A DNA stretch of 26,300 nt from Syntrophaceae bacterium UBA6109 (GTDB taxonomy: Bacteria > Desulfobacterota > Syntrophia > Syntrophales > UBA6109). Where the stretch lies: positions 1-26,300 of the forward strand of contig DIWJ01000078.1 of the NCBI GenBank assembly GCA_002428445.1, given 5' to 3'. Shown piece by piece: positions 3,811 to 25,395 of the stretch (positions are counted from its first letter, which is position 1; every line of letters starts with the position of its first letter). Under the pieces are notes generated by a model, which was not told where the DNA came from, made no database searches, and saw nothing but the letters and a program-made list of their open reading frames with translations. The position numbers and the translations under genes are program-made.

Positions 3811-3936
3811 GCAGGCTGTTCAAAAATGTCCGGATGCAAGGCTTCTGAAATCCTGAGCCATGAGGCGTACTTGACGGTACGTCGAATGGCGAAGGATGAA
3901 GAAAACGCAGCAGACGGGCGTTTTTCAACAGCCTGC
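3811..3936. repeat. complete palindromic intergenic repeat (copy 1)
   Basis: Its ends are perfect inverted repeats, GCAGGCTGTT and AACAGCCTGC. Inner blocks also pair: GCGTAC/GTACGtC around TTGACG, and AtCCTgaG/CttcGccAT-type segments. The whole 126 bp could therefore fold into one imperfect hairpin. Its right end shares a base with the TAG stop codon (3936-3938) of the minus-strand permease. An extra solo end resembling the terminal arm (CAGGTTGTTGAAAAG) lies just left, at about 3787-3801. The 3733-3935 gap holds nothing else recognised. Confidence 0.85.
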
Positions 3937-14750: not shown

Positions 14751-14777
14751 CCGCCCATATTGGAAGGAGAGCGGACC

Positions 14778-17027
14778 ATGCGCGAGAAAATCAAGAAGAT
14801 CCTGACGGTAACGCCGCTGAAGATTGCCCTGTTCGTCATTTTTCTTGCCCTTGTCTTGTTTTTCATGGACGTCTCCTTCCTCCGTTTCATGGAACTGGAG
14901 AGTCTCGACCTCCGGATGATATCGCGCGGGAAGATCGCCGCCGGAGGGGAAACGGTCATTGCGACAATCGACGAGAAAAGCCTCAGTGAACTGGGCCGCT
15001 GGCCCTGGCCGCGGACGACGATCGCCCGTCTCGTCGACACCTTGAAGCGGAACGGCGCCAAGGCCGTCGGTTTCGATATCGTCTTTGCGGAACCCGATGA
15101 GAATTCCAGCCTCAGGACCGTCGCCGAACTCGACCGGGAGTTCAGGCAGATGGGGATCGCCGATAAACGGCTGATGCGGGTGCTGCGGGAGAAGAAAGAC
15201 ACCGCCGATACGGACGCCGCTCTTGCGAAAGCCGTCAAGAAGGCCAGGAATGTCACCCTCGGGTATTTCTTCCATCTGTCGGAACGCGATGCGGGCCATT
15301 TGACGGAAAAGCAGATCCAGCAGGCGGCGGAGCTGATCGGTCCTTCGAAGTACCCTGCGGTTCAATCGAGCAGCCCCACGGACGACGTTCTGATGATCGA
15401 GGCCTTTGCGGCGGTTCCCAATCTCCCCGCGCTGGCCAGATCGGCCGAGAATGCGGGATACTTCAACGCCCTCCCCGACGAAGACGGGACGATCCGCTGG
15501 GCGCCGCTCGTCATGAAGTTTCGGGGCAATGCCTATCCGTCCCTGTCCGTCGCAATTCTGATGCAGTACCTGGACTGGCCGATGTCGGCGCTCCGGGTTG
15601 CGGAATACGGCGTCGAAGGCATCCGGATCGGGGACATCGACATCCCGACGGACGAGGTGGGACGTCTGCTCGTCAACTACCTGGGACCGGCCAAGACTTT
15701 TCCGCATTACTCCATCGCCGATATCCTGAAGGGTCGCGTCCCGCCGGAAGCCTTCAAGGGGAAAATCGTCCTGATTGGGGCGACTGCCACGGGAATCTAT
15801 GACCTGCGGGTCACGCCCTTTTCGACGGTGTATCCCGGGGTGGAGATCCACGCGACGGTGATCGACAACATCCTTCACCGGAACTTTCTCACCTACTCCG
15901 GCTGGATCCGCTTTCTGGACATGTGCGTCATCATGGTCCTGGGGCTCCTGGCCGGCATCGCGCTGCCCCGGTTCGGAGCGATCGCCGGGATCGGCATCAT
16001 CCTCGGCCTCCTCGTTTCCTTCTTTCTGGTGAACACGTTCATCTTCTCGCATTTCAATGTCTGGATGAACCTGATCTATCCGCTGCTGACGGTGGTGACG
16101 ATTTACCTGGGGATCTCGGTCTACCGGTACGTCACGGAGGAAAAGGAGAAGAAGAAGATCCGCGGCGCCTTCCAGTATTACCTTACCGCTTCGGTCATCA
16201 ACGAGATGCTCAAGGATCCCTCCAAGCTGAAGCTGGGCGGCGACAAGAAGGACCTCTCCGTCTTGTTCTCTGATATACGCGGCTTCACGACCGTCTCTGA
16301 AAAACTGTCGCCGGAAGAGCTGGTCCGCCTGCTGAACGAATACCTGACGGCCATGACCAACATCGTCTTCGAATACGAGGGTCTTCTGGACAAGTACATG
16401 GGCGATGCCATCATGGCGGTGTACGGCGCGCCCCTGGACCAGCCGGATCACGCCCTGCGGGCCTGCCGCACGGCGCTGAAGATGCGGGAGGAGCTCAAGC
16501 GCCTCCAGAAGAAATGGTCCGAAGAGGGCCGGCCGGTGCTCAACATCGGCGTCGGCGTCAACACCGGCGACATGGTGGTGGGCAACATGGGTTCGGAGAT
16601 GCGCTTCGATTACACGGTCATGGGGGACAGCGTGAATCTCGGATCCCGCCTGGAGGGCATCAACAAGGAATACGGGACCGGCATCGTGATCAGCGAATTT
16701 ACGTACGAGCGGGTCAGGGACGCGCTCCTGGCCCGCGAGTTGGACTGGGTCCGCGTGAAGGGCAAGAAACTTCCCGTCAAGATCTACGAGCTTCTGGGAG
16801 AGCGATCGGAAGCGGGGGCGCTGGAGCCGGTCGTGAAATTGTTTGAAGAAGGGTTCGCCCTGTACCGCCAGAGCCGGTGGGACGAGGCCATCGCCATATT
16901 CCGGAAGGTCCTGGAAGCAAGACCGGGCGATCCGCCGTCCGAAATCTATATCCGTCGCTGCCAGGATCTGAAGGAAAATCCGCCCGAACCCCCCTGGGAC
17001 GGCGTTTACACCATGACAAAGAAATGA
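14778..17027 (+). CDS. CHASE2-domain class III adenylate cyclase
   Basis: Membrane-bound cyclase of 749 residues that would make cAMP from ATP in response to an extracytoplasmic signal. A first membrane segment (IALFVIFLALVLFFMDVSF) is followed by a CHASE2 sensor (about 40-370), three close membrane segments (about 380-455), and the catalytic domain. Metal-binding residues are D499 (FSDIRGF) and D543 (GDAIMA). The purine-site pair is K539 and D611, as in adenylate rather than guanylate cyclases, and the transition-state pair is N620 and R624. The C-terminus holds a TPR-like helix pair (FEEGFALYRQSRWDEAIAIFRKVLEARPG). The ATG at 14778 is used rather than the TTG at 14760 because GGAAGGAG lies between them. 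It is 73 bp ahead of alr on the same strand. Confidence 0.94.
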   Translation: MREKIKKILTVTPLKIALFVIFLALVLFFMDVSFLRFMELESLDLRMISRGKIAAGGETVIATIDEKSLSELGRWPWPRTTIARLVDTLKRNGAKAVGFDIVFAEPDENSSLRTVAELDREFRQMGIADKRLMRVLREKKDTADTDAALAKAVKKARNVTLGYFFHLSERDAGHLTEKQIQQAAELIGPSKYPAVQSSSPTDDVLMIEAFAAVPNLPALARSAENAGYFNALPDEDGTIRWAPLVMKFRGNAYPSLSVAILMQYLDWPMSALRVAEYGVEGIRIGDIDIPTDEVGRLLVNYLGPAKTFPHYSIADILKGRVPPEAFKGKIVLIGATATGIYDLRVTPFSTVYPGVEIHATVIDNILHRNFLTYSGWIRFLDMCVIMVLGLLAGIALPRFGAIAGIGIILGLLVSFFLVNTFIFSHFNVWMNLIYPLLTVVTIYLGISVYRYVTEEKEKKKIRGAFQYYLTASVINEMLKDPSKLKLGGDKKDLSVLFSDIRGFTTVSEKLSPEELVRLLNEYLTAMTNIVFEYEGLLDKYMGDAIMAVYGAPLDQPDHALRACRTALKMREELKRLQKKWSEEGRPVLNIGVGVNTGDMVVGNMGSEMRFDYTVMGDSVNLGSRLEGINKEYGTGIVISEFTYERVRDALLARELDWVRVKGKKLPVKIYELLGERSEAGALEPVVKLFEEGFALYRQSRWDEAIAIFRKVLEARPGDPPSEIYIRRCQDLKENPPEPPWDGVYTMTKK

Positions 17028-17100
17028 TGTCCGGTTTCCGGGCGTACGCGTGGCTCCCGGCGGGTGTCCCGTTGCCGTCCAGGTCCGTGAAAGAGCATCC

Positions 17101-19053
17101 ATGAGAGAAGCGCAGAGGTATCGAAGCTGGGTGGAGGTCGATCTCGACAACTTCACCCGCAACTGGGACGAGATGAAGCGGCTGGTCGGTCCGGGGGTCC
17201 GGATCCTGCAGGTCGTCAAGGCGGACGCTTACGGCCACGGCGCCATGGAGATCTCCAATGTGGCCCTGAAAAACGGCGCCGACTGCCTGGGCGTCGCCAA
17301 TGCCGACGAAGGAGCGCAGTTGCGGGTCAGCGGGATCTCGGCGCCGATCATCATCCTGTCTCCCGCCACGGAAGGGGAAATCGACCAGATCCTGAAGTAC
17401 AACCTGACTCCTTCGGTGTCCGATATCGGCTTTGCCCGGGAGCTTCAGCGGCGCGGGCGCAAGACGGCCTGCCGCATCCCCGTCCATATCGAGGTGGATA
17501 CAGGGATGGGACGCGTCGGGACGCTTTACGCGGACGCCTTCGACATGATCCGCGAGGTGATGGAACTGCCGAATCTCACGGTCGAGGGAATCTACACGCA
17601 CCTGGCGGTCAGCGAGATCCGCGACGATTACAACCTCCGCCAGCATGCCCTTTTCGCGGAACTTCTGGAGCGCCTGGAAGACTGTCATATCCGCATCCCC
17701 GTCCGCCACATGTCCAACAGCGGCGCCGTCCTCAACTACCCGGAATTCCATTTCGACATGGTTCGGCCCGGCATCATGTCCTATGGCATCTATCCGTCGG
17801 CGGAGACGGCCTCGCAGGCGGCGCTGAGCCCCGTCATGGCCTTCAAGACGGCGATCGTCCTGATCAAGGATTTCCCCAAAGGCGCCAGCATCGGTTACGG
17901 CCGCACCTACACGACGGACCGCCCGACGAAGATCGCGACGATTCCCGTGGGATACGGGGACGGCTACGGCTGGGTCCTCTCCAACCGCGGCGAGGCGCTC
18001 GTCCGCGGTCGCCGGGCGCCGATCGTCGGGCGCATCTCCATGGACATGTGCGCGCTCGACGTCGGGCACATCCCCGACTGCGAAGTGGGGGACGAGGCGG
18101 TGCTGATGGGAAGGCAGGGAGAGGAGTACATCTCCGCCAACGAGATCGCCGAAAAGGTGGGAACGATCAGCTACGAGATCCTCTGCGCCCTGGGCAAACG
18201 CGCCCCCCGCGTCTTCCTCCACAAAGGGAAGACCGGCACGGTGGAACCGCGGCTGCGGAGGATCTTCATTGCCGACGAGGAGAAGTCGATCGCCCGCATC
18301 GACAATATCATCCGGAATTGCTTTCAGGCCCGCGCTCGCAACGAGGAACTGGGCGACGCCATCTATTACGAAATGTTCGAAACCCTCTTCGGCAAGGAAG
18401 ACCGGCAGCTCGAACTTCGTACGAATTTCCGCTACGACATCAACGTGCGGCCGGCCTCGGAAGAGGCACAGCCGCACGGAGGCAAGACGCCCGACTATTT
18501 CAACGTGAGCACGCACATTGAGTACGTCAAGACGCTGCGGAACCCGGTTTTTCTGATCGGGTGCGCCACGAACAACGAGCAACTGGAGGCCTTTTTCGAC
18601 GACAAACGGTGCGAGTACCGCTGGATTCTCAACCGGGGTGAAGACCTGGTCGTCGAGCGGGATTTCCAGGTGGCGCGCGTTCGCATCGACCGCGAGGATG
18701 TTCCGGTTCTCCGCACGGAGCATACCAAACGGGGCTACGAGGTCTGGTGCGGAGGCGACGATCTGCGGCGGAAGCTGAACCGTCCCGTCAAGGTCGAGAT
18801 CGAAATCCGGACCAAGAAATCCAAGAGCAACCGGAACTTCTCCGTCTATCTCGTTTACCCGACGCGGGGCCTCGATATCCTCTTTGACTACCGCGGGATG
18901 AATTTCCGGAACGTCAAGGAAGTGAGCTTCTTCGCCGGCCGCCACCCCTATCCCCAGGTGATCCGCGAGAAGGGGAAATCGGTCCGGATCAAGATCAGCG
19001 ATGAAGAGTGGATTTTTCCCAACAGTGGGGTGAGCTTTATATGGGACGTCTGA
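17101..19053 (+). CDS. alr: alanine racemase with long C-terminal extension
   Basis: The enzyme interconverts L- and D-alanine for peptidoglycan. The product has 650 residues, whereas ordinary racemases have about 370. Residues 1 to about 375 are a complete racemase: the PLP lysine K40 in VVKADAYGHG, VDTGMGRVG, MSNSGA, the catalytic Tyr near 266 in SIGYGRTY, VGYGDGY, RISMDM, and the usual ending GTISYEILCAL. About 275 further residues follow that I cannot assign. They show a charged helical part (RRIFIADEEKSIARIDNIIRNC), then strand-rich sequence with YRWILNRGEDLVVERDFQ, KVEIEIRTKK and IKISDEEWIFPNSGVSFIWDV at the end. There is no membrane segment and no frameshift at the junction. The ATG at 17101 is chosen because homology starts there; a GTG at 17050 is possible, and the ribosome site is weak. 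It is followed by a repeat and a ligase gene. Confidence 0.93.
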   Translation: MREAQRYRSWVEVDLDNFTRNWDEMKRLVGPGVRILQVVKADAYGHGAMEISNVALKNGADCLGVANADEGAQLRVSGISAPIIILSPATEGEIDQILKYNLTPSVSDIGFARELQRRGRKTACRIPVHIEVDTGMGRVGTLYADAFDMIREVMELPNLTVEGIYTHLAVSEIRDDYNLRQHALFAELLERLEDCHIRIPVRHMSNSGAVLNYPEFHFDMVRPGIMSYGIYPSAETASQAALSPVMAFKTAIVLIKDFPKGASIGYGRTYTTDRPTKIATIPVGYGDGYGWVLSNRGEALVRGRRAPIVGRISMDMCALDVGHIPDCEVGDEAVLMGRQGEEYISANEIAEKVGTISYEILCALGKRAPRVFLHKGKTGTVEPRLRRIFIADEEKSIARIDNIIRNCFQARARNEELGDAIYYEMFETLFGKEDRQLELRTNFRYDINVRPASEEAQPHGGKTPDYFNVSTHIEYVKTLRNPVFLIGCATNNEQLEAFFDDKRCEYRWILNRGEDLVVERDFQVARVRIDREDVPVLRTEHTKRGYEVWCGGDDLRRKLNRPVKVEIEIRTKKSKSNRNFSVYLVYPTRGLDILFDYRGMNFRNVKEVSFFAGRHPYPQVIREKGKSVRIKISDEEWIFPNSGVSFIWDV

Positions 19054-19055
19054 GA

Positions 19056-19177
19056 GGACTGTTGAAAAACGCCCGTCTGCTGCGTTTCCTTCATCCTTCG
19101 CCATTCGCCGTACATCGCGGTACGACTCATGGCTCAGGATTTCAGGAGCCTTGCATCCGAGTATTTTTGAACAGTCC
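19056..19177. repeat. complete palindromic intergenic repeat (copy 3)
   Basis: Terminal arms GGACTGTT and AACAGTCC pair perfectly, and inner blocks match copy 1 (for example CGCCCGTCTGCTGCG, CATCCTTCGCCATTCG and GGCTCAGGATTTCAG). Compared with copy 1 two arm positions differ, and both changes are compensated on the other arm. The element begins 2 bp after the alr stop codon (19051-19053). It lies between alr and the first ligase gene. Confidence 0.85.
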
Positions 19178-19222: not shown

Positions 19223-20284
19223 ATGACGGAAAGACTGAAGGTCGGTGTTTTTATGGGCGGCATGTCCTCGGAACGGGAGGTGTCGCTCAACAGCGGGAGA
19301 AATGTCCACGACAACCTCGACCCGGAGTTGTACGAGGGGAAACCCGTTTTTCTGGACGAGCGCAGCCGCTTCTGGGTGCTTCCCTGGCAGCTCGTTTCAC
19401 AGAACACGACGGTAGACATCTTTGAAAGACTGGAGCGCGATGCGCGCAGGATCTCCTACGAGGCCCTCCGGGAGGAAGTCGATTTCGCCTTCCTGTGCCT
19501 GCATGGAAAATTCGGCGAGGACGGATGCGTCCAGGGACTGCTGGAGCTTCTCGGCATCCCGTTCACCGGACCGGGGGTCCTGGCCTCGGCGATCGGCATG
19601 AACAAACAGGTCCAGCAGAAGATCCTGAAGGCCGCCGGATTGGATGTTCCCGAGAGCGTTCTGGTCGAGGAGCGCCGGTGGCGGCAGAATGCCGGCGAGA
19701 TCCGCAAACAGCTTTTCGGGAGGTTCGGAGGCCGGCCTCTTGTCACGAAACCGATCCGGGAGGGGTCCAGCGTCGGCGTCACCATCGTCCGGGATGCGGA
19801 TTCCCTGGACCGCGGCATGGAGGAGGCGTTCCGCTGGGACGCGGCGGCCCTTGCCGAGGAGTACCTGGAGGGGACCGAATTCTCCTGCATCGTCCTCGAG
19901 GAAGACGGGTTGCCCCGGCCGCTGGACCTGACGGAGATCCACCCCCAGAGCGAGTACTATACCTACGACGACAAATACATGCCCGGCCGCTGCCGGAAAT
20001 TCACCCCGCCCAAGGGCATTTCGCCCGAACAGGTCGCACGCATCAAGGAGCATGTCGTCCGGGCCTTCGTCGCCCTGGGCTTCCGCTCTTACGGACGCAT
20101 CGATGGATTCCTTCTGAAGGACGGGCGGATCCTTGTCACCGACCCGAACTCATCGTCGGGCATGGCGCCGTCGTCCTTCTTCTTCGAACAGGCGGCCTGC
20201 GCGGGGTTGCTCCCGTCGATGGTCATCTCCCGCCTGATCGAGAATGCCCTCGCGATCCACCGGGGGAAACGCGGACCGCTGTAG
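19223..20284 (+). CDS. ddl: D-alanine--D-alanine ligase homologue 1
   Basis: ATP-grasp ligase of 353 residues, family length, expected to join two D-Ala residues for the peptidoglycan precursor. The N-terminal block GVFMGGMSSEREVSL contains E17. The ATP-site block KPIREGSSVG has K176 and S182, and the omega loop YYTYDDKY has Y252; E17, S182 and Y252 form the usual Glu-Ser-Tyr triad. The second metal-ligand region reads VTDPNSSSGM (D307, N309) where most ligases have LEANTSPGM, so the metal-binding Glu is Asp and the Pro of the loop is lost. A five-codon open frame (19209-19226) ends in the TGA overlapping this ATG and may couple translation. The C-terminus, HRGKRGPL, resembles that of the second ligase. 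Confidence 0.92.
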   Translation: MTERLKVGVFMGGMSSEREVSLNSGRNVHDNLDPELYEGKPVFLDERSRFWVLPWQLVSQNTTVDIFERLERDARRISYEALREEVDFAFLCLHGKFGEDGCVQGLLELLGIPFTGPGVLASAIGMNKQVQQKILKAAGLDVPESVLVEERRWRQNAGEIRKQLFGRFGGRPLVTKPIREGSSVGVTIVRDADSLDRGMEEAFRWDAAALAEEYLEGTEFSCIVLEEDGLPRPLDLTEIHPQSEYYTYDDKYMPGRCRKFTPPKGISPEQVARIKEHVVRAFVALGFRSYGRIDGFLLKDGRILVTDPNSSSGMAPSSFFFEQAACAGLLPSMVISRLIENALAIHRGKRGPL

Positions 20285-20344
20285 AACGGGGAATTCCTGC
20301 GGGGCGGCGGCAGCCCGGATTTCCGGCGTCCGGGTGCAAGCGGC

Positions 20345-20373
20345 TTTACAAATCGGGCGATTCACATTATACA
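20345..20373 (+). promoter_or_regulatory. sigma70 promoter for the beta-barrel/ddl2/mla operon
   Basis: TTTACA (20345-20350) and TATACA (20368-20373) are separated by 17 bp. The start would be near 20380, about 45 nt before the ATG, with GAGGAGGA just ahead of the gene. A small GC hairpin (CCCGGA/TCCGGG, 20314-20334) just upstream has no T run and may only weakly end the previous transcript. Confidence 0.7.
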
Positions 20374-20424
20374 GAATTGAAGTATTTCAGCCTTCATCGT
20401 ATCTCTTGAGAAGAGGAGGATTCC

Positions 20425-21207
20425 ATGAAAAAGACCGGAGGACTTAAAGGATGGATCGTGTTGGCCGCGGCAATCGCGCTTGCCCTTTCGGCCGTGCCGG
20501 CATCGGCGCTGGAGTTCGGCGTGCGCGGGTATTACTGGTTCCCCGGCTATAAAGCCGACGGGCGTCTCGACGCCTCCGGCATCAACGGCACGGAAACGAA
20601 TTACAAGGATGTCCTGGATGTCGGCAATAAGGCGATCCCTTCAGTCGAGGCCTTTGCCGGCCTGGGCAAGAACCACCTCAGCTTCATGTATACGCCGCTG
20701 GACTACAACGGATCGACGGCCCTGTCACAGAACGTCACGTTCAAGGGGAAGACCTACACGGCCGGTACGCAAACCGAGTCCGATCTCAAGATGAAGATGT
20801 ACGATTTCGAGTACCAGCGCGACCTTGTCAATCTGGAGAACATCCTTGCCGGATTCTCGATCGGCGTCATCGGCAAGATCAAGTACATTGACGGCGAGAC
20901 GCGGATGAATGCCCCGTCGCTGGGATTTGACGAAAAGCAGACCTACTCCGTCGTGATGCCTATGGTCGGCGTCGGCGCCCATGTCGGCATTCTGCTCAAC
21001 ATCCTGGAGGCGAGAGCCAAGGTCACCGGCATGGGCTACTCGGGGAACGCTTTCATCGAAGCCCTGGCCGATCTCTCCTGGACGCCCTTTCCGTTTCTGG
21101 ATATTCATGGCGGGTACCGGTACTTGAAACTCAATGTCGAGCGCGGCGACCTCACCCTCAATTCGACCTACAGCGGGCCCTTCGTGGCCCTTACGGTGGG
21201 CTTCTGA
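20425..21207 (+). CDS. outer-membrane beta-barrel protein, function unknown
   Basis: Exported protein of 260 residues. A clear signal peptide is present (basic MKKTGGLKG, hydrophobic WIVLAAAIALALSAV, cleavage near PASA-LEF). The mature part alternates short amphipathic strands (LEFGVRGYYWF, HLSFMYTPLDY, KMYDFEYQRDL, AGFSIGVIGKIKYI, FLDIHGGYRYLKL) and ends in Phe (FVALTVGF), the usual outer-membrane barrel signal. About eight to ten strands are expected. It is the first gene after the promoter at 20345 and is 28 bp before the second ligase gene. Being in one operon with mlaEFD, it could be an outer-membrane partner of that transporter, but nothing in the sequence proves this. Confidence 0.9.
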   Translation: MKKTGGLKGWIVLAAAIALALSAVPASALEFGVRGYYWFPGYKADGRLDASGINGTETNYKDVLDVGNKAIPSVEAFAGLGKNHLSFMYTPLDYNGSTALSQNVTFKGKTYTAGTQTESDLKMKMYDFEYQRDLVNLENILAGFSIGVIGKIKYIDGETRMNAPSLGFDEKQTYSVVMPMVGVGAHVGILLNILEARAKVTGMGYSGNAFIEALADLSWTPFPFLDIHGGYRYLKLNVERGDLTLNSTYSGPFVALTVGF

Positions 21208-21235
21208 TCCGGGAACCGGGATGGAGGTTTTGTCA

Positions 21236-22300
21236 GTGGGGACCGGAGAACAGAAACGACCGCGCGTCGGCGTCATCATGGGAGGCTTGTCCTCGGAGCG
21301 GGAGGTCTCCCTTGAGAGCGGCCGCAACATCTTCAGCAAGATCGACCGGCGCAAATATGACCCGGTCGCCATATTTCTCGACGGGCAAGCGGGGTTCTGG
21401 GAAATCCCCGTCAAGCTCCTGATGCGGAACAGCACCCGGGACGTCGAGGAGGATCTGGAAGGCGAGGCCGTCCGGATCCGTTACGAAGACCTTGCGAAAA
21501 GAGTCGATGTGGCCTGCCTCGCCCTCCACGGCAAGTACGGAGAGGACGGCTGCATGCAGGGATTGCTGGAACTGCTGCGCATCCCTTACACGGGATCGGG
21601 CGTCCTCGCCTCCGCCCTCGGCATGGATAAGCTCATGTGCCGGAGGCTGCTCTCGGCTTCCGGCATCGACGTCCCCAGGACGATTCCCATCGAAAAGCAG
21701 AAATGGGAAGCGGATGCGGGGGCGATGGCTGCCGCCGTTGAAGCCGAGATCGGGTTTCCCTGTGTCGTCAAGCCCACTCGCGAAGGCTGCAGCACGGCGG
21801 TGAAGAAGGTTGTCTCTCCCCAGGGCGTAGCCGCCGCCGTCGAGGGGGCGCTCCAGTGGGACAACGTGGTTCTCGTGGAGGAGTTTCTCCAGGGAACGGA
21901 GGTGACCTGCGGCGTGCTCGGCGCGGAAGAGCCGGTCGCTTTGATCCCTTCCGAGACGGTGCCGACGGACGACATCCTCTCGCTGGAAGACAAGTTTCTG
22001 TACGGCCAGGGGGAAAACAAGACGCCCGCCCGTCTGCCGGAGGAGGTCCTGACCAGGATCCGCGAAACGGCGGTCGCTGTTTTCCGCGCCCTCGATCTGA
22101 AAGGATACGCACGCATCGACATGTTTGTCCGCGGGGACGGACGCGTCGCCGTCCTGGAGCCCAATACCCTGCCGGGGATGACGCCTTCGACCGTCCTCTT
22201 TCACCAGGCTGCGGCAGCCGGCATCACCCAGTCGGGACTGATCGACCGGATCCTCGAAACCGCCCTTGCCGTTCACGCTTCCAAAAGGGGTCCCCTGTAA
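21236..22300 (+). CDS. ddl: D-alanine--D-alanine ligase homologue 2, altered catalytic triad
   Basis: ATP-grasp ligase of 354 residues, paralogue of the gene at 19223. Shared blocks are GVIMGGLSSEREVSL (E21), LHGKYGEDGCMQGLLELL, TGSGVLASALGMDK, and the C-terminal KRGPL. Metal ligands are canonical (VLEPNTLPGM, with E308 and N310). The ATP-loop reads KPTREGCSTA, placing C185 at the triad Ser, and the omega loop reads ILSLEDKFLYG, placing F254 at the triad Tyr. Tyr-to-Phe at this position is known from D-Ala-D-lactate ligases of Leuconostoc type. The GTG at 21236 is favoured because GGAGG (21223-21227) lies 8 bases upstream; ATG 21221 would contain that site. The stop TAA is directly followed by the mlaE ATG, so this ligase is coupled to lipid-transport genes. 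Confidence 0.92.
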   Translation: MGTGEQKRPRVGVIMGGLSSEREVSLESGRNIFSKIDRRKYDPVAIFLDGQAGFWEIPVKLLMRNSTRDVEEDLEGEAVRIRYEDLAKRVDVACLALHGKYGEDGCMQGLLELLRIPYTGSGVLASALGMDKLMCRRLLSASGIDVPRTIPIEKQKWEADAGAMAAAVEAEIGFPCVVKPTREGCSTAVKKVVSPQGVAAAVEGALQWDNVVLVEEFLQGTEVTCGVLGAEEPVALIPSETVPTDDILSLEDKFLYGQGENKTPARLPEEVLTRIRETAVAVFRALDLKGYARIDMFVRGDGRVAVLEPNTLPGMTPSTVLFHQAAAAGITQSGLIDRILETALAVHASKRGPL

Positions 22301-23080
22301 ATGGATCGGTTCGTCGCTTCCCTGGACAGAATCGGCCGCCGCATGCTCTCCTATGTCGAGGAGATGGGGCAGATCCTGCTCCTCTTTCTGTCCGCCCTTT
22401 CATGGATGGTCCGGCCGCCGCTGAAGGCGAAACTCATCTTCAAGCAGCTGGAATTCGTCGGCGTGAAATCCATCGTGGTGGTCGTGCTGACGGGGACCTT
22501 CACGGGGATGGTCCTGGCCCTCCAGAGCTACCACGGATTCCGCCTCTTCAGTGCCGAGAGCCTGGTCGGTTCGACGGTCGCGCTGGGGATGACGAGGGAA
22601 TTGGGGCCGGTCCTGACGTCGCTCATGGTGACGGCCCGCGCGGGCTCCGCGATGGCGGCGGAGCTCGGCACGATGCGCGTCACCGAGCAGATCGACGCCC
22701 TGTACGTGATGGCGGCCAACCCGATCAAACACCTGATCGTGCCGCGGATCATCGCGAGCGTCGTCATGGTGCCGCTGCTCACCGTTGTTTCCGATTTTAT
22801 GGGGATCCTCGGGGGCTACTTCGTCGGGGTACACCTCCTGTTCATCAACGAGGGGGCTTTTCTCAAGAACATCACCAAGCTCGTTGAGCTTGACGACATC
22901 TACAACGGCCTCATCAAGGCCGCGTGTTTCGGCTTGATCCTGTCCGTGGTAGGATGCTACAAGGGGTTCAATACGAAGGGGGGCGCCGAGGGCGTCGGGC
23001 GGGCGACGACGGAAGCCGTCGTGCTGGCCTCCATCTCGATCCTGATCAGTGATTACTTCCTGACGGCCATCATGTTCTAG
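22301..23080 (+). CDS. mlaE: MlaE-family lipid ABC transporter permease
   Basis: Inner-membrane permease of 259 residues, normal for MlaE. An N-terminal amphipathic helix (LDRIGRRMLSYVEEMGQILLLFLSALSWM) is followed by five membrane segments. Family signatures are FTGMVLALQSYHGFRLFSAESLVGS, ELGPVLTSLMVTARAGSAMAAELGTMRVTEQIDAL and the C-terminal CYKGFNTKGGAEGVGRATTEAVV. As a dimer it moves phospholipid between the inner membrane and the MCE protein. It starts on the base after the ligase stop codon. No MlaB (STAS) or MlaC gene is present in the set. Confidence 0.96.
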   Translation: MDRFVASLDRIGRRMLSYVEEMGQILLLFLSALSWMVRPPLKAKLIFKQLEFVGVKSIVVVVLTGTFTGMVLALQSYHGFRLFSAESLVGSTVALGMTRELGPVLTSLMVTARAGSAMAAELGTMRVTEQIDALYVMAANPIKHLIVPRIIASVVMVPLLTVVSDFMGILGGYFVGVHLLFINEGAFLKNITKLVELDDIYNGLIKAACFGLILSVVGCYKGFNTKGGAEGVGRATTEAVVLASISILISDYFLTAIMF

Positions 23081-23126
23081 CGCGGACCCCGGAAGAAATG
23101 TTTGCGCAGGCTGTTGACGGTGCAAG

Positions 23127-23873
23127 ATGATCAAATTGGTTGAGGTCCACAAGTCGTTCGGAAAGCAGAAGGTCCTCGACGGACTCGATCTGCAGATCGA
23201 GGACGGCAAGACGACGGTCATCATCGGCCGCAGCGGCGGGGGTAAGAGCGTCCTCCTGAAGCATATCATCGGCCTTCTGAAGCCCGACAGCGGCGAGGTC
23301 TGGGTGGACGGCGACGACATCACGAAGATGAACGACAAGGATCTCAACGAGGTCCGCAAGAAGTTCGGCATGCTTTTCCAGGAGGCAGCCCTGTTCGACT
23401 CCATGGATGTTGGCGAGAACGTGGCATTCCCCCTGCGCGAGCATACGAAGATGAAGGATGCGGAGATCCGCGCGATCGTTGCCGACCGCCTGAAGGCTGT
23501 CGGCTTGACGGGCGTCGAACCGAAGCTGCCGGCGGAACTCTCCGGCGGCATGCGCAAACGCGTGGGGCTGGCGCGGGCGATCGCGCTTCGTCCGCAGATC
23601 GTGCTCTTCGACGAACCGACGACGGGGCTCGACCCGGTGATGACGGAGGCGATCAACCAGCTGATTCTGGAAACGCAGCGCCTGTTCAACCTGACCTGCG
23701 TCGTGATCAGCCACGACCTCGAATCCATCTTCAAGATCGCCCATCAGATCGCCATGCTCCACGAAGGCAAGATCATCGAGCACGGCACGCCGGAGACCAT
23801 CCGCTCTTCGGAAAACGCGGTGATCCGCCAGTTCCTTTCAGGGAGTATCGAGGGGCCGATTTCGGTGACGTAA
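23127..23873 (+). CDS. mlaF: MlaF-family lipid ABC transporter ATPase
   Basis: Nucleotide-binding subunit of 248 residues. Walker A is GRSGGGKS, the Gly-rich form typical of MlaF; the Q-loop is in MLFQEAALFDSM, the signature is LSGGMRKRVGLARA, Walker B is IVLFDEPTTGLDP, and the switch His is in VISHDLES. It powers MlaE. It sits 46 bp after mlaE without an obvious ribosome site. The gap includes GCAGGCTGTTGA (23106-23117), identical to the end arm of the palindromic repeat, perhaps by chance or as a relic. Confidence 0.96.
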   Translation: MIKLVEVHKSFGKQKVLDGLDLQIEDGKTTVIIGRSGGGKSVLLKHIIGLLKPDSGEVWVDGDDITKMNDKDLNEVRKKFGMLFQEAALFDSMDVGENVAFPLREHTKMKDAEIRAIVADRLKAVGLTGVEPKLPAELSGGMRKRVGLARAIALRPQIVLFDEPTTGLDPVMTEAINQLILETQRLFNLTCVVISHDLESIFKIAHQIAMLHEGKIIEHGTPETIRSSENAVIRQFLSGSIEGPISVT

Positions 23874-23916
23874 AAGCGACGGGCATCGGCAGGGGCCCCG
23901 AACAGGAGGTTTTTTC

Positions 23917-25395
23917 ATGCGGCTCAGTACCGAGGCAAAAGTCGGGCTGTTCGTCCTGGTGGGACTGATTATCCTGGGATACATGTCCTTCCGCGTCGGC
24001 CAGAAAGGCATCGGGCTGAAAAAAGGCTATATGGTCGAGGCCGTCTTTGACAATGTCGCCGGTCTCAACAAGGACGCTTCGGTGCAGATCGCCGGTGTCG
24101 AAGTCGGGCGCGTCGAATCCATCAGGCTCAAGGACGGCAAAGCCGTCATCCAGATGCGGATCACCCCGGAAGTGAAGCTTGAAAAGGACGTCCGCGCCGC
24201 CGTCAAGACGCATGGTGTTCTGGGGGACAAATACGTCGAGATCATGCCCGGACACAAGTCGCAGGGATACATGGAATCCGGGGACTCGATCCAGCAGGTC
24301 GAGCGGGCGGCCGACATCGACCGTCTCCTGCAGCAGTTCTCCGTTATCGCGGACGATATCCGCGGCGTGACCGGTTCCCTGAACCGCGTCCTGGGCGGCC
24401 AGGCCGGCGTCGACGCCCTCAATGACATCCTCGACAACACCCGTCAGCTCACGAAGAACCTGAACGCGGTCGTCGTGAACAACGAGGCGACGCTCAAGGC
24501 GATGCTCGAGAACACCCGCCAGCTTACCGGCAACCTGAACCGTGTCGTCCTGCAGAATGACGAGAAGGTGGGGCAGGTCTTCGACGGCCTGAAGAACGCG
24601 GCGAGCCAGATGGAGAAGACCTTCGCCTCATTGAACGAGATCACGGAAGGCGTCCGCCGGGGCGAGGGGTCCGTCGGCCAGCTCCTCAAGGATCCCACGA
24701 CGACGGAACGGCTCAACAAAACGCTCGCTTCCCTGCAGCAGATTTCCGACAAGATCAACGAGGGCAAGGGGACGATCGGCAAGCTCATCAACGAAGAAGA
24801 AACGGTCAACAACCTCAACGCGGGCCTGTCGGGGATCAACCGGTATGTCACCAAGGCCGAGCAGTTTCGCACCTACCTGAGCTACCGCGGTGAGTACCTT
24901 TTCCAGAAGAGCGACATGAAAAGCTACCTGGACCTCCGCATCCAGCCCAAGGAGGACAAGTTCTACATCCTCGGGATCGTCAGCGACCCGCGCGGCCGGA
25001 GGACGTCCAGGGAATCCACCACGGGCGGGGTCACCACCCGGACGGAGGAGTGGGACCGCAGCGGGCTCCTGTTCAACGTCCAGATCGGGAAGCGCTACCG
25101 CGACGTGGTTCTGCGCGGTGGTTTGCTGGAGTCGACGGGGGGGGTCGGAGTCGATTACTTCGCCATGAAAGACCGTCTCCGGTTTTCGTTCGAGGCCTTC
25201 GATTTCAGCTATGACCGCAAGGCCCATCTGAAGGCGACGGCGGAATACCAGCTGTTCAAGCACCTCTACCTGACAGCGGGCTGGGATGACTTTATCAGCG
25301 ACCAGGGCAACAGTTCGGTCTTCGGCGGCATCGCCATCCGCTTCGAGGACGATGATCTGAAGTACATGCTGACGTCGACGCCCATCCCGAAATGA
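23917..25395 (+). CDS. mlaD: MlaD-type MCE protein with long helical and beta-rich C-terminus
   Basis: Periplasmic lipid-tunnel subunit of 492 residues; enterobacterial MlaD has about 180. An N-terminal anchor (VGLFVLVGLIILGYMSF) precedes one MCE domain (about 38-115, with VAGLNKDASVQIAGVEVGRV and THGVLGDKYVEI). Residues about 130-325 are helical and Asn/Gln-rich, including a tandem 25-residue unit (LDNTRQLTKNLN.. then LENTRQLTGNLN..) and the blocks GSVGQLLKDP and GTIGKLINEE. From about 330 onward, alternating strands (YLDLRIQPKEDKFYILGIV, LLFNVQIGKRY, LRFSFEAFDFSYD, LKATAEYQLFKHLYLTAGWDDFI, SVFGGIAIRFEDDDL) look like a beta-barrel or barrel segment. The shape suggests a bridge from inner to outer membrane, as described for Veillonella MlaD. 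AACAGGAGG precedes the ATG. Confidence 0.94.
   Translation: MRLSTEAKVGLFVLVGLIILGYMSFRVGQKGIGLKKGYMVEAVFDNVAGLNKDASVQIAGVEVGRVESIRLKDGKAVIQMRITPEVKLEKDVRAAVKTHGVLGDKYVEIMPGHKSQGYMESGDSIQQVERAADIDRLLQQFSVIADDIRGVTGSLNRVLGGQAGVDALNDILDNTRQLTKNLNAVVVNNEATLKAMLENTRQLTGNLNRVVLQNDEKVGQVFDGLKNAASQMEKTFASLNEITEGVRRGEGSVGQLLKDPTTTERLNKTLASLQQISDKINEGKGTIGKLINEEETVNNLNAGLSGINRYVTKAEQFRTYLSYRGEYLFQKSDMKSYLDLRIQPKEDKFYILGIVSDPRGRRTSRESTTGGVTTRTEEWDRSGLLFNVQIGKRYRDVVLRGGLLESTGGVGVDYFAMKDRLRFSFEAFDFSYDRKAHLKATAEYQLFKHLYLTAGWDDFISDQGNSSVFGGIAIRFEDDDLKYMLTSTPIPK

Follow-up and report, generated by a model that had tools for sequence, protein, structure and literature searches.

Complementary D-alanine ligase paralogues in Syntrophales and Patescibacteria: a candidate two-component replacement of Ddl

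Background

D-alanine-D-alanine ligase (Ddl) is essential and is regarded as a single self-sufficient enzyme. In the window analysed here, a stretch of 26,300 nucleotides from Syntrophaceae bacterium UBA6109 (contig DIWJ01000078.1), two genes of this family, named Ddl1 and Ddl2 below, lie close together and each departs from the usual active site in a different place (Table 1). The question is whether they are separate enzymes, an enzyme and a decaying copy, or components of one ligase. A literature search, mainly of papers outside subscription, found no account of paired or heteromeric Ddl.

Table 1. Coordinates of genes and active-site features in the window (DdlB, E. coli numbering)
Feature	Position	Strand	Remarks
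Alanine racemase	17050..19053	+	PF01168 and PF00842; D-alanine supplier; immediately upstream of Ddl1
Ddl1	19223..20284	+	Ddl paralogue; E-S-Y triad intact, metal/carboxylate loop altered
Ddl1 Ser182 codon	19766..19768	+	Place of DdlB Ser150; canonical
Ddl1 Tyr252 codon	19976..19978	+	Place of DdlB Tyr216; canonical
Ddl1 D307-P-N-S-S-S-G-M	20141..20164	+	Asp replaces metal-ligand Glu270, Ser replaces Pro275
Predicted outer-membrane beta-barrel	20425..21207	+	TIGR04219 match weak, below cut-off
Ddl2	21221..22300	+	Ddl paralogue; metal site intact, triad Ser/Tyr replaced by Cys/Phe
Ddl2 Cys190 codon	21788..21790	+	Place of DdlB Ser150
Ddl2 Phe259 codon	21995..21997	+	Place of DdlB Tyr216, in the omega loop
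Ddl2 E313-P-N-T-L-P-G-M-T-P-S-T324	22157..22192	+	Metal site intact; Thr replaces Ser281
MlaE-type permease	22301..23080	+	Begins directly after the Ddl2 stop

Results and discussion

Two true Ddl paralogues with complementary active sites

Both proteins scored above the curated cut-offs of Dala_Dala_lig_N and Dala_Dala_lig_C (94.4 and 129.8 bits for Ddl1, 95.6 and 168.4 bits for Ddl2) and passed TIGR01205 D_ala_D_alaTIGR (249.7 and 275.9 bits; cut-off 245.65). Likewise, the source database labels both pair members D-Ala-D-Ala ligase. VanA/VanB and VanC/VanG ligases share fold and superfamily with the pair, but Van NCBIfam models remained far below their cut-offs among the best 25 of 45 rows (for Ddl2, VanG 220.6 bits against 495 and VanA 170.3 against 775). 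Neither protein displayed the complete set that we take to define an ordinary one-chain Ddl (E15, S150, Y216, R255, D257, E270 and N272 in DdlB numbering): Ddl1 lacked E270, and Ddl2 lacked S150 and Y216. This distinguishes them from DdlA/DdlB (PF01820 and PF07478), a self-sufficient enzyme, since here two diverged paralogues occur per genome, each without part of the standard set. Pfam domains and alignment thus upheld the sequence-only reading, which had proposed two Ddl paralogues with complementary active-site changes.

For Ddl1, that reading had listed E17, S182, Y252, D307 and the loop NSSSGM, all of which were found in the translated frame and in the alignment. The E-S-Y triad was present in all Ddl1 rows with a residue there (n = 168; one gap at E and one at Y), and Asp stood at the Glu270 place in 167 of 168 aligned rows. 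A further change was Thr278 to Ala. Since Asp for Glu270 is a mild change and Syntrophales Ddl1 retains Lys97, Lys144, Arg255, Asp257 and Asn272 in the alignment, this protein may be active by itself.

The probable start of Ddl2 is ATG 21221, giving 359 residues, the same length as the 95%-identical P0001. The key residues are then C190, F259, E313 and N315; the earlier numbers (Cys185, Phe254, Glu308, Asn310) hold only when counted from GTG 21236. The assignments themselves, Cys and Phe at the triad places and intact equivalents of Glu270 and Asn272, agreed with the alignment: Cys/Phe occurred in 184 of 184 aligned Ddl2 rows, as did Asp257, Glu270 and Asn272. Tyr212 was replaced by Leu, and Val152/Gly153 by Thr/Ala. 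No other Tyr takes the place of Tyr216 in Ddl2: among the remoter Ddl2 proteins examined, most have Pro (KFLPG or KFMPG) where KFLYG has its nearby Tyr. The ending common to both ligases, given earlier as KRGPL, is indeed shared but reads KxGPL in general, with exact KRGPL in 35 of 168 Ddl1 and 140 of 184 Ddl2 rows.

The predicted Ddl1 model displayed an ordinary Ddl fold (mean pLDDT 89.7), with values of 69 and 65 for blocks 241-250 and 311-320. In the Ddl2 model (mean 88.7), omega-loop residues 256-259 fell below 50. Because of this low local pLDDT in both proteins, the omega-loop lid and the altered loop are the least certain parts of the models.

As for the neighbours, the racemase carries a C-terminal extension of 274 residues with no Pfam match. 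The beta-barrel gene lies between both ligases in many relatives, but other loci gave no match at that place, so the pair does not require it. The MlaE-type permease gene adjoins Ddl2 in many relatives and is no part of the ligase mechanism.

One ancient duplication and shared constraint

In the final tree, Ddl1 (98/88) and Ddl2 (100/97) joined in one clade (100/100), separate from the ordinary Ddls sampled. This supports a single ancient duplication as the source of both paralogues, in line with the common origin suggested earlier. Support for Ddl1 was only 65 in a first quick tree; the final one includes six additional Patescibacteria rows and omits one long row (can_L141). The Ddl1 of L067 forms a long branch, and the labels _Chl, _NC10 and _c given to tree proteins that lack a source name are putative.

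Purifying selection was alike on both genes, with median dN/dS of 0.101 (Ddl1) and 0.096 (Ddl2) over 40 genome pairs picked for similarity from the 43 loci where neither gene was incomplete; saturation affected one Ddl1 pair, and the genome pairs share branches and are non-independent. Among 52 Ddl1 genes, 45 were intact, five were cut by contig ends and two ended early; the 72 Ddl2 genes comprised 62 intact, seven cut by contig ends, two with early ends and one split. Early ends were recorded in L052 (both genes, apparently frameshifted), L059 (where match and contig stop together) and L073, which is an ordinary Ddl (33%). Conservation, intact frames and dN/dS led us to reject a chance pattern or a decaying copy; chance is excluded because the signature is conserved across one order and in a second phylum.

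Distribution in Syntrophales and beyond

Pair-type ligases occurred in 86 of 155 Syntrophales genomes, only ordinary-scoring Ddl in 55 and neither in 14, the ordinary class being score-based (E 1e-53 to 1e-84), with sequences inspected for eight of the 55 (G055, G040, G071, G030, G047, G039, G063 and G602). Not one of the 155 combined the pair with an ordinary Ddl. According to the match lists, 76 of the 86 pair-type genomes held both members, some as fragments, five only Ddl1 and five only Ddl2. Five one-member genomes (G002, G716, G052, G705, G718) have a contig end less than 1 kb away on the expected partner side, and in G715 two pieces on two contigs are different parts of one ligase; in G026, G723, G035 and G061 contig ends do not explain the absence of the partner. 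In G693 the second member was only a fragment. Nine pair-type genomes gave a third match. In G022 this was a weak match (127 bits), in G710 another, incomplete copy of the pair type, and in the others a fragment or a split piece. Both members were still retained where they are unlinked (G027, G033). A seemingly natural fusion of Ddl1 and Ddl2 (G042, open frame of 772) was rejected on account of stop codons between the genes, and no true fusion was found.

Across Desulfobacterota the pair was found in five of 297 genomes, all within the Syntrophales list. None of 299 Pseudomonadota genomes gave a match at E 1e-90, a search that scored few candidates per genome and had no internal positive control. 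With Ddl2-type queries on plasmids, 609 and 606 records matched, none of which reached 60% identity at its best place; the matches listed (10 of 609 and 60 of 606) were ordinary Ddl and Van ligases. Viral contigs gave a single match, at 36% identity.

One sequence set had been gathered with peptide patterns containing the Phe motif, and homologue lists comprised the best 120. A check by profile search recovered 35 ligases (19 Ddl1, 16 Ddl2) from 20 regions, all with the signature; seven Ddl1 and four Ddl2 lay on contigs that, by their length, were outside the peptide-pattern set. A motif search over these regions missed five of 40 expected sequences.

Seven Patescibacteria genomes also carried this pair and its complementary pattern, and the complementary residues were present in all eight pairs tabulated. 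Gene order was Alr-Ddl1-Ddl2-FtsQ-like in L152 and L153, and Mur ligase domain-Ddl1-Ddl2-FtsQ-like in L154, where the ligase genes overlap by 4 nt. An ftsQ-like gene thus directly follows the pair in three of the seven genomes, the FtsQ matches being weak but above cut-off. Alr also adjoins Ddl1 in L136, and MurA-type genes lie near the pair in L137/L138. In two genomes (L096, L097) the same kind of racemase precedes one ordinary Ddl where the pair would stand. The Ddl1 loop was not alike in all lineages: five pairs had Asp270 and three had His272/Ile276. The main Ddl2 changes, by contrast, were constant across all pairs tabulated, a difference that suggests Ddl2 as the catalytic member.

A two-component ligase and its alternatives

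The pair replaces ordinary Ddl, since the two kinds were never found together in the 155 genomes, the pattern is conserved, the duplication is ancient and purifying selection is similar. This replacement, together with the position of some Patescibacteria loci beside alr and an ftsQ-like gene, makes D-Ala-D-Ala, the usual dipeptide of the cell wall, the most likely product of the two proteins taken together. The explanation we favour, and hold to be probable if far from settled, is that Ddl1 and Ddl2 jointly serve the cell as its D-alanine ligase, a two-component enzyme into which homodimeric Ddl would have been turned by that duplication and which displaced the ordinary form. The two proteins would form a heteromer in which the activation and joining of D-Ala fall to Ddl2, whose Mg-ATP site is complete (Asp257, Glu270, Asn272); Ddl1, bearing the Ser-Tyr omega-loop lid without a normal metal/carboxylate loop, would be a structural or regulatory partner or, alternatively, might contribute one half of the catalytic cycle. 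Divided roles, as the sequence-only reading proposed, are therefore likely, and one member is possibly non-catalytic, an option it had also raised. In trypanosomes, S-adenosylmethionine decarboxylase (AdoMetDC) needs a catalytically dead paralogue, prozyme, as activator, according to the part of PMC5201418 available; that enzyme is unrelated to Ddl, and a dead paralogue turned activator is a parallel by analogy only.

In a stricter form, the pair would be an obligate two-subunit D-Ala-D-Ala ligase that arose by one ancient duplication, with Mg-ATP chemistry and Ser-Tyr lid split so that neither protein is self-sufficient, transferred whole between Patescibacteria and Syntrophales (perhaps also NC10 and Chloroflexi) and displacing, or displaced by, Ddl. 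We put this forward tentatively, as slightly more apt to fail than to hold. In Ddl structures a single subunit houses each active site, and a composite site therefore does not follow from complementary loss alone.

A division of labour, in which Ddl1 makes D-Ala-D-Ala and Ddl2 another dimer (D-Ala-D-Lac, D-Ala-D-Ser or other) for two precursor types, would fit the nearly full site of Syntrophales Ddl1 and the distinct, invariant acceptor-side set of Ddl2 (C150, L212, F216, T281). The ligase LmDdl2 probably keeps the triad Ser and, in its remaining active site, resembles ordinary Ddl. Phe at the Tyr216 place accompanies depsipeptide activity in lactic acid bacteria, as far as the available part of PMC5996685 goes; Ddl2 has it in 184 of 184 rows, in common with the D-Ala-D-Lac ligase LmDdl2 (1ehi), but shows Cys150, Leu212, Thr281 and a conserved partner besides. 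DdlB Y216F (1iow, solved structure) carries the same single change at 216, yet it is a one-residue laboratory mutant and Ddl2 has several more changes. A D-Ala-D-Lac ligase is possible, yet Ddl2 is without triad Ser, Tyr212 and Ser281, and the six window neighbour proteins scanned by Pfam gave no vanH- or vanX-like match. Moreover, three Patescibacteria Ddl1 have His at the metal-ligand Asn272 and Ile at Gly276 and are hardly active ligases, the pair was never found beside an ordinary Ddl in the 155 genomes, and both members are retained in genomes of about 1 Mb. We therefore consider a division of labour unlikely.

Ddl2 acting alone as D-Ala-D-Ala ligase, with Ddl1 as a separate enzyme or sensor and no complex, is less probable again. 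Its Asp257, Glu270 and Asn272, conserved throughout, would allow it, and Ddl2-type proteins are numerous in groups seen without gene context; yet Ddl1 is under similar constraint and its retention parallels that of Ddl2 in both phyla, and the ligase genes overlap in L154. The converse, a working Ddl1 that tolerates Asp270 with Ddl2 as altered accessory, agrees with the Ddl1 triad but is very improbable: three Patescibacteria Ddl1 lack Asn272 and Gly276, four lack His63, and the metal site of Ddl2 is intact in all pairs tabulated. That the pair serves another pathway while an unrecognised ligase makes the wall dipeptide is the least credible: extra weak Dala_Dala_lig_C matches do occur elsewhere in pair-type genomes, some as adjacent pairs, but they score far below Ddl, one such weak pair also occurs in an ordinary-Ddl genome (G055, L143), and the pair adjoins alr and ftsQ-like genes and was never found with ordinary Ddl.

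Conclusions

The pair occurs in this bacterium and some distant relatives and is not a single-genome quirk. Ddl is a target of D-cycloserine, according to the available part of PMC5717164. If the two-component reading is true, two diverged subunits replace this enzyme, the annotation of Ddl genes would need revision, and paralogues would be able to divide Ser-Tyr triad and metal site between them. Uncultured groups would also be expected to show unusual wall chemistry or an unusual response to drugs.

Two ligases with complementary losses

The closest named relatives of both ligases (among database proteins and pattern-search loci, i.e. loci retrieved with peptide patterns that include the Ddl2 Phe motif) were MAGs of Syntrophales and Syntrophaceae, which makes membership of Syntrophales very likely for the host. 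In E. coli DdlB numbering, where residue roles are general knowledge unless a paper is cited, Ddl1 retained E15, S150, K215, Y216, R255, D257 and N272, with Asp, Ser and Ala replacing E270, P275 and T278, respectively. Ddl2 retained E15, R255, D257, E270, N272, P275, G276 and T278; in place of S150, Y212, Y216 and S281 it carried Cys, Leu, Phe and Thr.

Features of the window and of related loci
Feature	Location	Strand	Remark
CHASE2 adenylate cyclase	window 14760-17027	+
Alanine racemase	window 17050-19053	+	long additional C-terminal part
Racemase C-terminal extension	window 18229-19053		274 residues, no Pfam match
116-nt sequence	window 3816-3931 and 19059-19174		inverted copies, 89% alike
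Ddl1	window 19223-20284	+	both Ddl domains, passes TIGR01205
Predicted outer-membrane barrel	window 20425-21207	+	between Ddl1 and Ddl2
Ddl2	window about 21221-22300	+	both Ddl domains, passes TIGR01205
MlaE, ABC ATPase (putative MlaF), MlaD	window, downstream of Ddl2	+	in this order
Barrel plus MlaE/F/D	window 20425-25395
Peptide deformylase	L136 6443-6979; L137 5628-6182		between the ligase genes
Other ATP-grasp ligase pairs	L142 4598-7032; L143 3777-5740		adjacent; weak Dala_Dala_lig_C hits

These patterns were extended to 168 Ddl1 and 184 Ddl2 rows (the window, 120 database proteins each, and 47 or 63 proteins from pattern-search loci, sets that may overlap). Cys150, Phe216, Thr281 and Glu270 were present in all 184 Ddl2 rows. 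All 168 Ddl1 rows had Ser150; 167 had Tyr216, the remaining row being a gap, 167 had Asp270, with Glu in the other, and 166 had Ser275. The single Glu may belong to L073, a pattern-search locus encoding an ordinary Ddl at 33% identity. The sequence-only reading, which gave Ddl1 an intact triad with Asp at the metal-binding Glu and an altered loop, and Ddl2 Cys and Phe at the triad Ser and Tyr with the metal-site Glu kept, was thus borne out. Further Ddl2-type proteins listed all displayed the GCS motif (118/118) and, in 117, K-F (P0355 was unread by motif); the names that sources attached to some of them included Uhrbacteria, NC10, Anaerolineae, Chloroflexi and Syntrophales, and it is from these names that membership of NC10 and Chloroflexi is putatively assigned.

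The same division was observed when the window pair was compared with seven pairs from Patescibacteria. All eight Ddl1 kept S150 and Y216 and were altered at 275 and 278, columns that are alignment-dependent in L152-L154 owing to a small insertion around them; a further lesion was Asp270 (5/8) or His272 with Ile276 (3/8), and His63 was lost in four. All eight Ddl2 displayed Cys150, Phe216 and Thr281 and retained positions 270, 272, 275, 276 and 278. Each member's losses are residues retained by the other. The N-domain GEDGxxQG motif was shortened in three Patescibacteria Ddl2 (GEECLPG in L136_B, GEDCLPA in L137_B, GEDCFPG in L138_B), an extra loss absent from their Ddl1 partners.

Distribution and gene context

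The Ddl2 profile (A1) was run against the 155 genomes of Syntrophales, where complete proteins separated cleanly into Ddl2 type (above 550 bits), Ddl1 type (about 428-467) and ordinary Ddl (below 300). The pair type was found in 86 genomes, only an ordinary-band match in 55 and neither in 14, the named genomes being mostly MAGs, whose gaps can account for absences. In none of the 155 did this search, including second and third matches, find pair type and ordinary Ddl together. In two-match genomes the second match either lay within the Ddl1 band or underwent a separate check; of the third matches, checked in nine genomes, that of G022 was weak (127 bits, outside both bands), and the other eight were fragments, parts of split ligases or an additional copy of the pair type. 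From the match lists, both members were present in 76 of the 86 (some as fragments), Ddl1 only in five and Ddl2 only in five. In five of these ten one-member genomes a contig end lay less than 1 kb away on the expected partner side, and in a sixth two pieces were parts of one ligase. Likewise, a TIGR01205 search of 60 genomes gave, by hand count, 41 with two pair-type hits, four with one, ten with one ordinary Ddl and five with none. Both genes were retained in G027 and G033 though far apart or on separate contigs.

Where other genomes have the pair, loci L096 and L097 displayed a long racemase (656-663 residues) directly followed by one ordinary Ddl, so the extension goes with the racemase rather than with the pair. 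The second 116-nt copy lies just upstream of Ddl1, and the repeat may be a REP-like sequence or a small mobile element. The ABC ATPase between MlaE and MlaD was read as MlaF. In many loci of Syntrophales the barrel and Mla genes adjoin Ddl2, a persistent association of lipid-transport genes with the gene for a cell-wall ligase. Within Syntrophales, other ATP-grasp pairs accompanied the Ddl pair in G014 and ordinary Ddl in G055.

The same pair was carried by a Candidatus Uhrbacteria contig (L067, a pattern-search locus). Adjacent pairs were found in G023, G080, G142 and G102 (286 Patescibacteria genomes searched), and a search of 285 genomes from the same class as G023 added G779, G984 and G817. 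Beyond the two members, no further match appeared in these seven genomes at E thresholds of 1e-60 and 1e-50. Gene order was Alr-Ddl1-Ddl2-FtsQ-like in L152 and L153, Mur ligase domain-Ddl1-Ddl2-FtsQ-like in L154 (ligase genes overlapping by 4 nt) and Alr-Ddl1-deformylase-Ddl2 in L136. In L137, a PBP, a MurA-type gene and a Mur ligase domain preceded Ddl1-deformylase-Ddl2, and in L138 a MurA-type gene lay farther upstream. The deformylase thus separates the ligase genes in two Patescibacteria lineages. FtsQ matches were weak (PF03799 at 25.2, 21.2 and 23.9 bits, cut-off 21; POTRA_1 at 37.4 in L153). Since ddlB precedes ftsQ in the standard dcw cluster, the pair occupies the ddlB place.

Origin and constraint

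In a maximum-likelihood tree of 79 rows, Ddl1-type (D1, 18 rows, 98/88) and Ddl2-type proteins (D2, 33 rows, 100/97) were sister groups within one clade (100/100), separate from the 28 ordinary Ddls sampled. This supports the common origin suggested earlier. After midpoint rooting, the neighbour of this clade was five Patescibacteria Ddls. The tree is explained by a single duplication whose two products were then inherited and transferred together. Median dN/dS values were nearly equal (0.101 for Ddl1, 39 pairs; 0.096 for Ddl2, 40 pairs), indicating similar constraint.

Possible mechanism

No account of a paired or heteromeric Ddl was found among the open-access papers searched, the scope on which novelty rests; what is said here on function is inference wherever it goes beyond co-retention, gene context and sequence. 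In ordinary Ddl, Mg-ATP phosphorylates D-Ala1, which is joined to D-Ala2 beneath an omega-loop lid held by the Glu-Ser-Tyr triad. Ddl2 has the metal and ATP ligands and lost the lid tie; Ddl1 has the lid tie and lost the usual metal- and carboxylate-binding loop. In the simplest model, both would form a heteromer, with Ddl2 as the subunit that carries out the reaction and Ddl1 as its stabilising or activating partner, much as a dead paralogue is reported to serve trypanosome AdoMetDC (PMC5201418). A truly composite active site, built from both subunits, is no more than conceivable. The proposal that Ddl2 is a D-Ala-D-lactate-type ligase draws on its Phe216, the residue at this position deciding between depsipeptide and dipeptide activity in lactic acid bacteria (PMC5996685), but the additional changes of Ddl2 and the presence of a partner make direct carry-over of this rule unsafe. 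The Ddl1 lesion differs by lineage and the main Ddl2 changes are constant, which suggests that catalysis would fall to Ddl2, its site having been retuned, and that Ddl1 would be a partner whose chemistry may have been relaxed while its structure remained constrained.
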